From Polynucleobacter arcticus (GTDB taxonomy: Bacteria; Pseudomonadota; Gammaproteobacteria; Burkholderiales; Burkholderiaceae): a stretch of DNA of 64,000 bases. Below the pieces are notes generated by a model, which saw only the letters and a program-made list of their open reading frames with translations, had not been told where the DNA came from and made no database searches. Of this stretch, positions 32,434-37,911 are shown piece after piece; position 1 is the stretch's first letter, and every line of letters starts with the position of its first letter. Where the stretch lies: NCBI RefSeq assembly GCF_013307205.1, contig NZ_CP028940.1:254135-318134 (forward strand). Direction: 5' to 3'. A program made the position numbers and the translations under genes.

Positions 32434-33057
32434 ATGAAGATTATTGCTCACCGAGGTCTTTGGTTTAAACCAGATGAAAAAAATACACTAGTAGCATTTG
32501 AACGCGCCTTGCAAAATGGATTTGGTATTGAAACTGATTTTAGGGATCGCAATGGGGAGCTGGTCATTAGCCATGATCCTGCAGCAGCTGATTCAATTGA
32601 GGCAAATGTATTCTTTGAATTATGCAATCAATATCCAGATGCGGACCCACATGCCATAAATATAAAATCCGATGGTTTGCAAAAATTACTTGCCCCACAT
32701 CTCCTTGCATGGAGTCCTGATCGATATTTCGTATTTGACATGTCAGTGCCAGACTCCCTGGGCTATCTCAAGCAAAACATGAATACGTTTACCCGGGTAA
32801 GTGAGTACGAGTCTTACCAAGATTTTGATGGAAAAACTACTGGTGTCTGGTTAGATGGGTTTGGTGGGGAATGGTTTGGGGCTGAGCAAATCGATCATTA
32901 CTTGGCACTAGGTAATTCTGTAGCAATAGTATCTCCTGAGCTACACGGACGAGATCATGAATCGCTTTGGGCTAAGATTAAATCGCTGTACACTTCAAAT
33001 ATGTCATTAATGCTTTGCACAGATTTGCCCTTAGAGGCAAAGAAATATTTCTCATGA
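32434..33057 (+). CDS. GDPD-like phosphodiesterase domain protein
   Basis: A 207-residue protein of the glycerophosphodiester phosphodiesterase superfamily. It keeps the catalytic set His6-Arg7 (IIAHRGLW), Glu33 and Asp35 (GIETDFRD) and His47 (VISHD), but is shorter than typical GDPDs. It is first of five genes that overlap by 4 bases each. Its substrate is unknown; context suggests a sugar- or glycerol-phosphate linked to the surface glycan. Confidence 0.75.
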   Translation: MKIIAHRGLWFKPDEKNTLVAFERALQNGFGIETDFRDRNGELVISHDPAAADSIEANVFFELCNQYPDADPHAINIKSDGLQKLLAPHLLAWSPDRYFVFDMSVPDSLGYLKQNMNTFTRVSEYESYQDFDGKTTGVWLDGFGGEWFGAEQIDHYLALGNSVAIVSPELHGRDHESLWAKIKSLYTSNMSLMLCTDLPLEAKKYFS

Positions 33058-33686
33058 TTAAAATCAAGTGCGTTATTTTCGATATGGATGGCGTCTTGAT
33101 AGATGCTCGTGATTGGCACTACGAAGCCTTAAATAGAGCTTTGGCAATCTTTGGTTTTCAAATTTCAAGGCATGATCACCTGGTTACTTATGATGGTCTG
33201 CCAACCACGAAGAAGCTAGAAATCCTGAGCACGCATTCTCAATTACCAAATCAATTGCATGGCTTTATTAATGATCTGAAGCAAATCTTCACCATGGATA
33301 TTACGATGACAAAATGTGCTCCTACATTCTGTCATGAGTATGCTATTTCAAGATTAAAAAGTGATGGATATCGCATGGCGGTTTGCTCAAACTCTATCCG
33401 AGATACCATTACTTCGATGTTGTCTAAAGCAGCCTTAATTGATTACTTTGATTTTTATTTATCCAATCAAGATGTGACTAAATCCAAACCTGACCCCGAG
33501 ATCTATTTAAAAGCAATTCAGCGCTTTGGAGTGCACCCGAGTGAGTGTCTAGTATTGGAAGATAATGCCAATGGCATTCGTGCAGCCAAGGATGCTGGAG
33601 CTCATGTAATGAAGATTGATCAAGTGACGGATGTGAGCTACGCCAATATTGTGAAATATATTCAAAAGATTGAGGCGACTTCATGA
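33054..33686 (+). CDS. HAD-family phosphatase
   Basis: A 210-residue HAD subfamily I enzyme with all motifs: nucleophile FDMDGV (Asp10, Asp12), SNS (motif II), KSKPDPEIY (motif III Lys) and VLEDNANGI (motif IV). The cap is beta-phosphoglucomutase-like. ATG 33054 overlaps the GDPD stop (ATGA); an upstream in-frame ATG at 33015 lies inside the previous gene. The probable role is dephosphorylation of a phospho-sugar intermediate. Confidence 0.85.
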   Translation: MIKIKCVIFDMDGVLIDARDWHYEALNRALAIFGFQISRHDHLVTYDGLPTTKKLEILSTHSQLPNQLHGFINDLKQIFTMDITMTKCAPTFCHEYAISRLKSDGYRMAVCSNSIRDTITSMLSKAALIDYFDFYLSNQDVTKSKPDPEIYLKAIQRFGVHPSECLVLEDNANGIRAAKDAGAHVMKIDQVTDVSYANIVKYIQKIEATS

Positions 33687-34411
33687 TTAATGTACTTATT
33701 CCGCTGAGCGGCGGATCCAAGTTCTTTGATTCTGAGGAATATTTTTATCCAAAAATGCTGGTTGAGATCTTGGGTAAACCCATGATTCAGCATGCTATTG
33801 AAAATCTGCAGACATTGCGGGAAGATTTGCAATTTACCTTTGTAGTTAAAAAAAGTGACTGTACTCAGTTTCACTTAGATGACACTCTCCGACTCTTGAC
33901 TGATGCAGAATGCAAGATTGTCGTTCTGGACGAAGAGACTAAGGGCGCTGCCTGTAGCGCTTTAATGGCTATTGATGCTATCAATAATGATGATCCCTTG
34001 GTGATTGCCAACTTTGATCAAGTGATTGATTGCAATCTTTCTGAGTTGTATGATGAATTTCATAATTCAGACAGTGATGCAGGGTGTCTTGTTTTCAGTA
34101 CGACTCATCCTCGATGGTCATTTGTTTTGCTTGATGAGCAGGATTGCGTACTAGAGACTGCAGAAAAGAGGCCCTTGAGCCGAAATGCCATCGCCGGTTT
34201 TTATTGCTATAAGCAAGGCAAAGATTTTGTTGAGGCTGCCAAGTCAATGATTTTGAAATCTTGCTCTAACGCAGATGTATTTTATATTTCCCCTACCTTT
34301 AACGAGTTAATTCTTAAGGGTAAGAGCATCAAGGCACTTCGCATCCCTAACGAAAAATATCATAGCTTCTATACGCCTCAAAAAATTGAAGAGTACGAGA
34401 AGGGTTTATGA
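33683..34411 (+). CDS. Nucleotidyltransferase-like protein with altered signature
   Basis: A 242-residue protein with a glycosyltransferase-A/NTP-transferase fold: the start IPLSGGSKFFDSEE replaces the usual GxGxR with a Lys at position 13, followed by PKML (Lys24) and GKPMIQHAIENL. The metal site appears as VIANFDQVID. It is a paralogue of the gene at 34734. The changed signature suggests altered substrate or reduced activity. Overlaps both neighbours by 4 bases. Confidence 0.75.
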   Translation: MINVLIPLSGGSKFFDSEEYFYPKMLVEILGKPMIQHAIENLQTLREDLQFTFVVKKSDCTQFHLDDTLRLLTDAECKIVVLDEETKGAACSALMAIDAINNDDPLVIANFDQVIDCNLSELYDEFHNSDSDAGCLVFSTTHPRWSFVLLDEQDCVLETAEKRPLSRNAIAGFYCYKQGKDFVEAAKSMILKSCSNADVFYISPTFNELILKGKSIKALRIPNEKYHSFYTPQKIEEYEKGL

Positions 34412-34737
34412 AAAAGTATCAACTAAACACGATGACCAAGGGGTGGTTTGTTGGTGACTTCTCGCCAACCATCATTAAAACTCAAGAAGTTGAGGTGGGC
34501 GTTAAGCAGTATCTCAAGAATGAATATGAAGAAACGCACCATCATAAAATTGCCACCGAAGTTACGGTAATCGTCTCTGGAAAAGTGCGTATGAATGGTG
34601 AGATTTTTGTTGCTGGCGATATCATCGTTATCGAGCCGGGGGAGTCTACCGATTTTGAAGTTTTAGAAGATGTCACAACGGTAGTTGTGAAATACCCTGG
34701 TGCTCAAAACGATAAATATATGGGTGCATCAAGTTGA
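34408..34737 (+). CDS. Small cupin-like protein
   Basis: A 109-residue protein with a single cupin barrel: YEETHHHKIATEVTVIVSGK with a His44-His46 cluster, then DIIVIEPGESTDFEVLED. This could be a sugar isomerase, epimerase or metal-binding regulator. It overlaps both nucleotidyltransferase genes by 4 bases (ATGA and TTGA). Confidence 0.7.
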   Translation: MKKYQLNTMTKGWFVGDFSPTIIKTQEVEVGVKQYLKNEYEETHHHKIATEVTVIVSGKVRMNGEIFVAGDIIVIEPGESTDFEVLEDVTTVVVKYPGAQNDKYMGASS

Positions 34738-35462
34738 ACATAGTAATTCCGATGGCAGGCCTGGGCTCTCGCTTTGTCAAGGCAGGTTACCAAGCCCCAA
34801 AACCGTTAATTGATGTTGCCGGGAAGCCTATGATTGTGAGGGTGATGGAAAACCTGCAACAACCCGGAGCTACATTTACTTTATTGGCTAGAAAAGAACA
34901 TATTGATAGCAATCAAGGGCTAGTTGCCCAAATACAGTCAGACTTTAATGCAGTGTTTGTTCCCATTGATAAATTGACTGAAGGCACCGCTTGCACCGTT
35001 TTATTCGCTAGGTCTCATCTTGATCCTAATCAGGAAGTAGTTATCGCTAATTCTGATCAAATTATTGACAACTGCTTTACTCAGTTTTTGATCGATGCCA
35101 AGGTAAGGGATCTAGATGGATCGATCTTGACTTTTATTGATGCAGAGTTAAATCCGAAATGGTCCTTTGCGAAGATTGATGCTGCGGGATTGGTTACTGA
35201 AGTTCAGGAAAAAAAAGTCATCTCTGAATTTGCAACAGTAGGAATCTATTATTTTAAACGTGCCGACGAGCTGGTTGACAGCATCATTCAGATGATCATT
35301 GAAAATGACCGTGTGAATAACGAATTTTATACATGCCCCGTTTATAACTACCTCATTCGCGAGGGAAAAAAGGTGGGCATATTTAACATAGACCAATCCC
35401 AAATGCATGGAATTGGCACCCCAGAAGATTTAAACACCTACCTGAAGCTTATTCAAGGTTAA
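34734..35462 (+). CDS. Sugar-phosphate nucleotidyltransferase
   Basis: A 242-residue protein with an intact signature: MAGLGSRFVKAGYQAPKPL (Gly9, Gly11, Arg13, Lys23), metal site VIANSDQIID, and GIGTPEDLNTYL at the end. It probably couples NTP to a sugar or polyol phosphate made with the preceding enzymes. TTG start overlaps the cupin stop. The first nucleotidyltransferase in the cassette is a close structural match. Confidence 0.8.
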   Translation: MNIVIPMAGLGSRFVKAGYQAPKPLIDVAGKPMIVRVMENLQQPGATFTLLARKEHIDSNQGLVAQIQSDFNAVFVPIDKLTEGTACTVLFARSHLDPNQEVVIANSDQIIDNCFTQFLIDAKVRDLDGSILTFIDAELNPKWSFAKIDAAGLVTEVQEKKVISEFATVGIYYFKRADELVDSIIQMIIENDRVNNEFYTCPVYNYLIREGKKVGIFNIDQSQMHGIGTPEDLNTYLKLIQG

Positions 35463-35470
35463 CACTCTCT

Positions 35471-36253
35471 ATGGGTACTGTTTCATCTTTTCTTCAGCCG
35501 CTTAAAGAAAATATTAAATTCCGTTTACGGTGGCGGTACCTGTGGAAAGATTGGTTTTTAGGAAGACATGCTTGTCTTGGGTATGACGTTCTAAAGTACT
35601 ACGACAAACTACCAAGAGAGGTTAACTTTCAAAAAGGTCGTGCAGATCTTTTGCTGCGGTATTGGGCTGATAAATCACTTCTACCAATCAGTAGTCGACT
35701 TTCCCCATTGATGGCAAGAAACGATGTGCTACCGCACATTCGTCAGTTAGAGTTTTTTAATTGCTTACCGATGCATCCACCCCGATTTATTTTGATGGAT
35801 TCATTTGCAGAGCTTACAGATCAATTGTTTACGCAACGTTCTGAAGGGTGGCAATTTTGTTGCGCCTATAGCGATTTAGTTCAGGAGAAGTCATTTTCTG
35901 AAGAGTATGAAAGTAATGGCCTGCTACCCATTGAAAATATGAGGCAGGTCTACTTAGAGCTGTTTAGTTTTTTTATCAATAGGTGGGGTGCTGTACCTAT
36001 TTACTTTTTACACTTTCCAATTGCCCTAGAAACTCGGGAAAACTTGAGAAAACGGCATGCGGCAATGATTGAAATTATCCATCAGATAGCACTGGAATAT
36101 CCTAATGTTCACTCCATTGCAATTGATGAGTCAAGTGTTCAGTGGCCTAACAATACTCCTGAGGAGTTAAAGGCTTTTCCTTATCATTATGATGAGGAAA
36201 CTTATCTCGCATTTAAGAAAAATATTGAGCAAGTAGCGCCATTACAGCGTTAA
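35471..36253 (+). CDS. Unknown protein in polysaccharide locus, SGNH-like features
   Basis: A 260-residue protein without a family I can name. MDSFAELTDQLF near residue 108 could be the Ser block of an SGNH hydrolase and FPYHYDEETYLAF near the C-terminus its Asp/His block, as in capsule-associated esterases. This is speculative. It follows the five-gene cassette after 8 bases and is the last gene on this strand before two minus-strand genes. Confidence 0.5.
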   Translation: MGTVSSFLQPLKENIKFRLRWRYLWKDWFLGRHACLGYDVLKYYDKLPREVNFQKGRADLLLRYWADKSLLPISSRLSPLMARNDVLPHIRQLEFFNCLPMHPPRFILMDSFAELTDQLFTQRSEGWQFCCAYSDLVQEKSFSEEYESNGLLPIENMRQVYLELFSFFINRWGAVPIYFLHFPIALETRENLRKRHAAMIEIIHQIALEYPNVHSIAIDESSVQWPNNTPEELKAFPYHYDEETYLAFKKNIEQVAPLQR

Positions 36254-36993: not shown

Positions 36994-37911
36994 TTATAGG
37001 GTGACATTTTGGAATTGACTAGCCCAGATATTTTCCTGAGCAGCGATCTCCTGTTGAATTTTATATTTCGATATTTTTTTCTTGAGACGCCCAAGAAGAC
37101 CGCGGGAATGGTAGCCGCAAGGATGTATCTTAGCGCTATGCTGGGCCCACTGCGTTTCAGTCCACCATGGATGCTCCCATGCCTGACCTAAACTTCTAAA
37201 TCCTGCTTGAGCTCCAAACCATAAAATTCCCAGTTGCTGATGGTCAATGAGTCTCAAGTAGTTTTCTGCAACAGACTTATGGTTTAACTGTTGACTGGCA
37301 TGCTGATTAATTCGTGATCGATACAGGGCATAAAGTTCTGCTTCAGCGCAGTAGAGATCTTCTAGGGATGGCAGGCCAAGATATTCAGGTCCGAGCGCCA
37401 CTCGATCCTGTTCGGACATATTAAACATCTGCTTGTAATTGAAGCCATCATCACTCCACAGTTTTTCCATCTCGTGGATATGTCCAAATGAGAATAGATC
37501 TGGCATGGTTGAAAAGCTATCTGGACTAATTGAAATATTACGAAACGCTGGAACAACAATTCTAGAATTCGTTCCCTCTGGAGGCGAAAAGTGCGCCCAC
37601 TCCATCAATTGGTTTACTGCCATGCGTGTTGGCAGCATATCTGTTCGCCACTTGAGAACATAGTCACATCCAGCGGCTTTGGCGGCATCTAAACCCCTTG
37701 CGCTGGAGAAGCGTTGGTAGTTGCGGTTGGTAAATCCCGCTACGACAGGTTTTGGGCTTCTGATGAGCTCAAAGTCACCTTTTGGGATGATCTGTCCATC
37801 ATTCCAGGTAGATAGGACCGTATAGTCAAAGAGATGGGGCAAGGTTTCAAGGATCAGTCTGCTACCCCTGCGGATATCGCCCTGAATAATGCAGCCGACT
37901 TTCATTGCCAT
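36994..37911 (-). CDS. WavE-like LPS synthesis protein
   Basis: A 305-residue probable glycosyltransferase of the WavE family named after Vibrio cholerae core LPS synthesis. The N-terminus VGCIIQGDIRRGSRLILETL, YTVLSTWNDG and CDYVLKWRTDMLP match the pattern. The C-terminus is basic (GRLKKKISKYKIQQEI). It forms a minus-strand pair with the methyltransferase, inside an otherwise plus-strand locus. Confidence 0.7.
   Translation of the reverse strand: MAMKVGCIIQGDIRRGSRLILETLPHLFDYTVLSTWNDGQIIPKGDFELIRSPKPVVAGFTNRNYQRFSSARGLDAAKAAGCDYVLKWRTDMLPTRMAVNQLMEWAHFSPPEGTNSRIVVPAFRNISISPDSFSTMPDLFSFGHIHEMEKLWSDDGFNYKQMFNMSEQDRVALGPEYLGLPSLEDLYCAEAELYALYRSRINQHASQQLNHKSVAENYLRLIDHQQLGILWFGAQAGFRSLGQAWEHPWWTETQWAQHSAKIHPCGYHSRGLLGRLKKKISKYKIQQEIAAQENIWASQFQNVTL

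Follow-up and report, generated by a model that had tools for sequence, protein, structure and literature searches.

The window, a 64,000-nucleotide stretch of the Polynucleobacter arcticus contig NZ_CP028940.1, carries at positions 32434-35462 of the forward strand five co-directional genes that form a widespread, uncharacterised cassette, which probably serves to make a surface-glycan precursor. They encode, in order, a GDPD-like phosphodiesterase, a HAD phosphatase, a nucleotidyltransferase (NTase)-fold protein (NT1), a small cupin and a second NTase (NT2) (Table 1). Going by the enzyme types, we consider it reasonably likely that the five make up one pathway whose product is a non-standard unit activated by a nucleotide (NDP-X or NMP-X) and destined for a surface polysaccharide, with the steps proposed below.

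Table 1 Features of the cassette and its 3′ flank, in window positions
Feature	Position	Strand	Remarks
GDPD-like (PI-PLC-superfamily) phosphodiesterase, 207 aa	32434..33057	+	Compact TIM barrel, catalytic residues intact; PHROG 35688 (function unknown)
HAD-IA phosphatase, 210 aa	33054..33686	+	Pfam and NCBIfam matches; fused with NT2 in phages
NT1, paralogous to NT2 (NTase fold); NTP loop eroded, predicted to be a non-catalytic partner	33683..34411	+	
Small cupin, 109 aa	34408..34737	+	Motifs GWF[V/I]GxFxP and HxHK...E
NT2, nucleotidyltransferase, TTG start	34734..35462	+	GxGSRF...PKP loop intact
260-aa protein	35471..36253	+	Starts 8 bp past the cassette; cluster c18
WavE-family putative transferase	36994..37911	-	PF07507, E 1.8e-7; inferred member, candidate user of the product

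The first-pass annotation had described a five-gene cassette with 4-bp overlaps in a polysaccharide locus, and both parts of that description hold. The reading frames were confirmed, each of the four junctions is an exact 4-bp overlap, and Pfam and NCBIfam support the HAD-IA phosphatase and two NTP_transferase-fold proteins, with a weak match for the cupin. A ManC-type protein, a GDP-mannose 4,6-dehydratase and an epimerase-family protein are encoded upstream; the WavE protein, a Wzy_C match below its cut-off and a flippase of the Polysacc_synt family lie downstream. The overlaps fit an operon. A fixed ratio of the five proteins, which had been deduced from them, does not follow, because such overlaps are commonplace here (another five lie between 43847 and 48900) and are only partly or poorly conserved elsewhere. 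The 260-aa protein that follows the cassette has no match in Pfam or NCBIfam; its family occurs in 11 loci, including the window, and it is at most a possible member of the cassette.

The first-pass annotation had also treated the genes as a unit and proposed a gene-neighbourhood search. A cupin-profile scan of a one-genome-per-species collection yielded 421 relatives, and all five families lie near the cupin in 67 of the best 80 loci. Among loci of at least 16,000 bases the full set is present in 43 of 46, and 10 of the 13 loci that lack it fall below that length. The order of the window recurs in 34 of these best 80 of 421; GDPD-HAD-NT1-NT2-CUP accounts for 19, NT2-GDPD-HAD-NT1-CUP for 9, and in the remaining 18 genes are extra, missing or moved. 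NT1 comes after HAD in 71 of 74 cases. Nine cellular loci (L043, L075, L090, L039, L023, L047, L035, L056 and L031) have a gene for a protein of 111-133 aa between NT1 and the cupin; the single member scanned (L043:7669-8004) is SnoaL-like. Records with the full set are named as Proteobacteria, Campylobacterota, Bacteroidota, Treponema, Akkermansia, Clostridia-type bacteria and Gastranaerophilales (names as recorded, many genomes being metagenome-assembled).

Seven plasmid records match the cupin and five were examined. Ruegeria and Roseinatronobacter plasmids have the window order followed by WavE, and a plasmid of P. aeruginosa PA83 has NT2-GDPD-HAD-NT1-cupin. The set is split in a Scandinavium plasmid, with NT1 uncalled, and the cupin is the sole cassette gene called in an Acetobacter pasteurianus plasmid. 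E. coli genomes gave no DNA-level match to the Scandinavium GDPD-HAD genes, a weak test given how distant the hosts are.

Because the 80 loci were picked by cupin similarity, we sampled further genomes by kinship: a set of 61 relatives and one of 159 Campylobacterales, 220 in all, including the chosen carriers G000 and G334. Among the relatives the cupin and the GDPD-like gene each occur in 3 of 61 genomes, the same three, one of them the window's own. In the Campylobacterales, centred on the chosen carrier G334, the cupin occurs in 8 of 159 genomes and the GDPD-like gene in 11; the same eight have a GDPD-like gene at E ≤2.9e-78, within approximately 3 kb of the cupin, and the other three have distant paralogues (E 3e-26 to 1.5e-22). 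Over both samples, the cupin and a strong GDPD-like match, spaced by about 3 kb at most, coincide in 11 of the 220 genomes; leaving out G000 and G334, the count is 9 of 218. In a class-wide sample of 274 genomes the cupin was found in the window's own genome only, and GDPD-like matches in five: the window's own genome, one strong (G076) and three weak. G076 has GDPD-HAD-NT1-NT2 plus a second NT1-like gene, and its genome lacks the cupin at E 1e-8. The distribution of the cassette is thus patchy and its linkage tight. In one Campylobacterales genome the GDPD-like gene is interrupted by an in-frame stop (G396:C1:1240750-1241325).

The five proteins also diverge together. Pairwise distances correlate at r 0.62-0.86 across the 42 loci in which all five have normal length, and for each of the 10 pairs none of 500 shuffles reached the observed value. 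This co-divergence is compatible with joint transfer and joint vertical descent alike.

Since functionally uncharacterised phage protein families match all five proteins, we examined phage as well as plasmid loci. Searches by tblastn recovered 3 phage records with the cupin as query and 19 with NT1, and a viral scan found cupin relatives in 469 viral contigs. Among the best 80 of these, HAD and NT2 are fused in 36 loci, 33 of which also have a GDPD-like gene; NT2 stands with a RuBisCO-like protein (RLP) in 15 and occurs otherwise in 6; 13 have GDPD and cupin only, and 10 the cupin only (four of these ten are shorter than 12,000 bases). In total, the GDPD-like gene is present in 65, NT2 in 57 and NT1 in one of the best 80 of 469, counts that are not independent events because some loci are near-identical in layout (for example, L109-L112). 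The fusion places the HAD step beside activation. The five genes were not found as separate genes in the cellular loci examined, in keeping with the unit, but phages hold reduced sets and lone cupins; loci with the cupin only, or with GDPD and cupin, indicate that parts may act separately. In a further viral gene group (L137:10309-13571 and similar loci, with some scanned members taken from sister loci), a 119-aa HAD-like protein, a 117-aa PMI-type cupin, a 516-aa protein with an NTase match and a 332-aa unknown protein occur together.

The RLP genes lie directly 3′ of NT2-cupin (for example, L151:8302-9549, L161:7973-9184 and L170:8323-9600, plus 12 more viral loci). The 15 RLPs represent 10 distinct sequences, all retaining KPKxG and KEDE and lacking the HxHRxxH-type stretch; the one scanned with Pfam matched RuBisCO_large, and the three scanned with NCBIfam fell far under the cut-offs. 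Of the 42 NT2-containing viral loci that have no RLP, 40 have HAD; of the 15 that have one, none does. A search of the whole RLP records with the HAD profile gave no match in 15, compared with 3 of 3 control records, although the controls had contributed rows to the profile and many RLP records may be fragments. The RLP may have displaced the HAD step in some phages; we offer this as a suggestion, since the host or an unrelated enzyme could supply the phosphatase.

The GDPD-like protein is a true GDPD-fold enzyme. Fold comparison of its model (VIA-align 2 and a viral library) places it among the TIM barrels of the PI-PLC/GDPD superfamily, with matches to glycerophosphodiester phosphodiesterases that include glycerol-3-phosphate complexes. 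Its catalytic residues H6, R7, G8, E33, D35, H47 and K78 are invariant across 30 aligned sequences; in viral forms, mostly approximately 150 aa long, all but G8 (55 of 56) are kept in 56 of 56 distinct sequences. These short forms needed profiles, as tblastn with the window's protein found none in phage records. No curated GDPD model matched (Pfam and NCBIfam were empty at E 0.1), so we call the protein GDPD-like and do not place it in a curated family. By sequence it reaches a solved GDPD only at E 0.018, and it differs from GlpQ/UgpQ-type enzymes in lacking a Pfam or NCBIfam match, in carrying distinctive conserved motifs (C195-T-D, for instance) and in its setting in a glycan cassette. The best viral fold match is a 716-aa Bodo saltans virus protein named glycosyltransferase/phospholipase (A0A2H4UUJ1; E 1e-13, 28% identity).

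The HAD protein matches PF13419 (E 7.5e-34) and has the DxD nucleophile and the Ser/Thr, Lys and acidic motifs of a HAD-IA phosphatase: D23, D25, S125, K158, E182 and D183 (counted from a start at 33015) are kept in at least 97% of 73 sequences. It is close to broad phosphorylated-carbohydrate phosphatases and beta-phosphoglucomutase-like enzymes, yet falls below the cut-offs of the beta-phosphoglucomutase models (TIGR01990, 95.2 bits against 189.4; TIGR02009, 116.7 against 153.35). The cupin profile had no significant match among solved structures (best E 0.22). Small sugar-isomerase cupins (the TDP-sugar 3,4-ketoisomerases WlaRB, QdtA and FdtA, and archaeal phosphomannose isomerase) tied in Z score with seed-storage cupins, so the likeness to them is one of fold only.

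Transferases were counted with our own WavE model and with a model of the DUF7796-like family c2, a distant WavE relative (hhalign probability 94.6%). Of the 81 cellular loci (the window and the best 80 of 421 genome loci), 45 match the WavE model and 56 match either model; of the 80 viral loci, 15 and 40 do, respectively. Where genome loci are fully flanked, 33 of 46 have one or the other and 13 have neither; in the 102 loci with either family, among them plasmid and phage records, the median distance between a cassette gene and the closest member of these families is 17.5 bp. The curated model PF07507 matched in 2 of the 220 sampled genomes, both carriers, and 9 of 11 carriers had no match. 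Without the chosen genomes this becomes one match in 9 carriers and none in 209 other genomes (approximately 0.04, by hand arithmetic), an association that is suggestive only. A separate link to methyl-phosphoramidate transferases (NF058596, in L179) was rejected: it scored 107 bits where the cut-off is 600 and covered only residues 332-454, a stretch common to several other open reading frames of Campylobacter-type loci.

The two NTase-fold proteins have diverged in their catalytic motifs. NT2 matches PF00483 at E 3e-13 and keeps the GxG[ST]R NTP loop in 65 of 68 sequences, and the PK motif and the first metal-binding Asp (D108) in 68 of 68. Sugar NTases usually have a second metal-binding Asp ahead of the GTP motif; in the alignment NT2 has Gly there in 67 of 68, so its chemistry may be unusual. 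NT1 gave a Pfam match of 8.6e-7. The first-pass annotation took both for working NTases, and we find it very unlikely that the two make two different activated units. NT1 has lost the triphosphate-binding loop (GxG[ST]R in 0 of 74) and the GxGTPxD-type motif (0 of 74), and it was called in one of the best 80 viral loci, compared with 57 for NT2. Conserved T, G and C residues (73-74 of 74) and an E-K pair (74 of 74) would be in keeping with two working enzymes, and they imply that NT1 still binds something. Judged by these motifs, the cassette probably has one active NTase, NT2, and a non-catalytic partner, NT1. GMPPB/GMPPA form a catalytic/regulatory NTase pair of this kind, likewise an intact NTase with a paralogue that has lost its NTP loop; the cassette pair differs in that NT1 is so rare in viral loci, and a complex of NT1 with NT2 would be hypothetical. 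A domain name used for this NTase group hints at a possible link to Pasteurella BcbE/BcbF. NT1 is broken into two open reading frames in L022 (7262-8004), and the NT2 of Campylobacter bilis (L044:4201-6048) continues at its C terminus for 375 aa that match a free-standing 377-aa protein of L031.

In the pathway that we propose, the GDPD-like enzyme would cleave a small phosphodiester to a phosphorylated or free C3-C6 precursor, which the cupin would isomerise or epimerise. The HAD enzyme would take off a phosphate just before or just after activation, and NT2 would join the product to an NTP, with NT1 binding or regulating NT2. A WavE or DUF7796-type transferase may put X onto the glycan; the product is perhaps added in this way. 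Points against this pathway are the viral loci with the cupin only or with GDPD and cupin, the cupin-free set of G076, the Gly of NT2 in place of the second Asp, the lack of phage records in the tblastn search with the window's GDPD-like protein, and the loci and carriers that have no WavE-type gene. Given the linkage and co-divergence, a phosphodiesterase, phosphatase, cupin and NTase route to an activated non-standard unit, as first put forward, remains the best reading. Of that earlier interpretation, the unit, the polysaccharide locus and the activated-unit route thus survive, but two working NTases and a fixed protein ratio do not.

The matches of the GDPD-like barrel, together with the presence of glycerophosphodiesters in most hosts, would also suit a donor resembling CDP-glycerol: the phosphodiesterase would release glycerol phosphate from glycerophosphodiesters of phospholipid origin, the position or form of the phosphate would be tuned by HAD and cupin, NT2 would make the nucleotide and a transferase would add glycerol phosphate. 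We regard this as unlikely, as the set has no oxidoreductase or kinase, an isomerising cupin would have no obvious task, and NT1 and NT2 match GT-A-type sugar pyrophosphorylases, with no TagD-like protein among their matches. It is similarly unlikely that an ordinary sugar phosphate is what the core activates and that GDPD and HAD serve housekeeping or editing, removing wrong phosphodiesters or phosphates and limiting side products. The kinship of HAD to broad carbohydrate phosphatases would agree with that role, but GDPD and HAD co-diverge with the other members, and the HAD-NT2 fusion in phages fits a dedicated step.

Known systems resemble our preferred single-pathway reading in part. In Kdo, sialic acid and heptose activation a HAD phosphatase (KdsC or GmhB) is followed by an NTase (KdsB or HddC), and there too the phosphatase adjoins or is fused with the nucleotidyltransferase; by contrast, the cassette lacks a synthase or kinase and has a phosphodiesterase, a cupin and an eroded second NTase. 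NT2 matches the HddC and KdsB models weakly, far under their curated cut-offs. In the CDP-glycerol and CDP-2-glycerol pathways an NTase activates a small phosphorylated alcohol for surface polymers, but those enzyme sets differ and are not known to have a counterpart of the cassette's GDPD or cupin. L200 and L201 may hold a second, related gene group: there, distant GDPD paralogues have as neighbours an NTase-like protein of double length, a membrane protein of the GtrA type and a GT2 transferase.

No description of the five-gene set or its pathway was found among the papers listed in searches of the PMC literature, in agreement with the first-pass annotation, which knew of no named pathway with this set; the absence is weak because subscription papers lie mostly outside that collection. 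PMC10919079 covers work on capsule nucleotide sugars and not this set. In the annotated records examined the parts bear only general names (for example, hypothetical protein, HAD family phosphatase, phosphodiesterase, cupin or glycosyltransferase family 2). We tentatively entertain the possibility that the cassette is an undescribed glycan-precursor pathway, found in several phyla and reduced in phages, with a precursor made by a phosphodiesterase, an NTase with a non-catalytic twin, an RLP displacing HAD in some phages, and a unit that is novel or as yet unlinked to genes. Should the product be one activated unit, one biochemical study could account for a surface-glycan feature in all carriers, and the same study would show what phages gain from their reduced copy.
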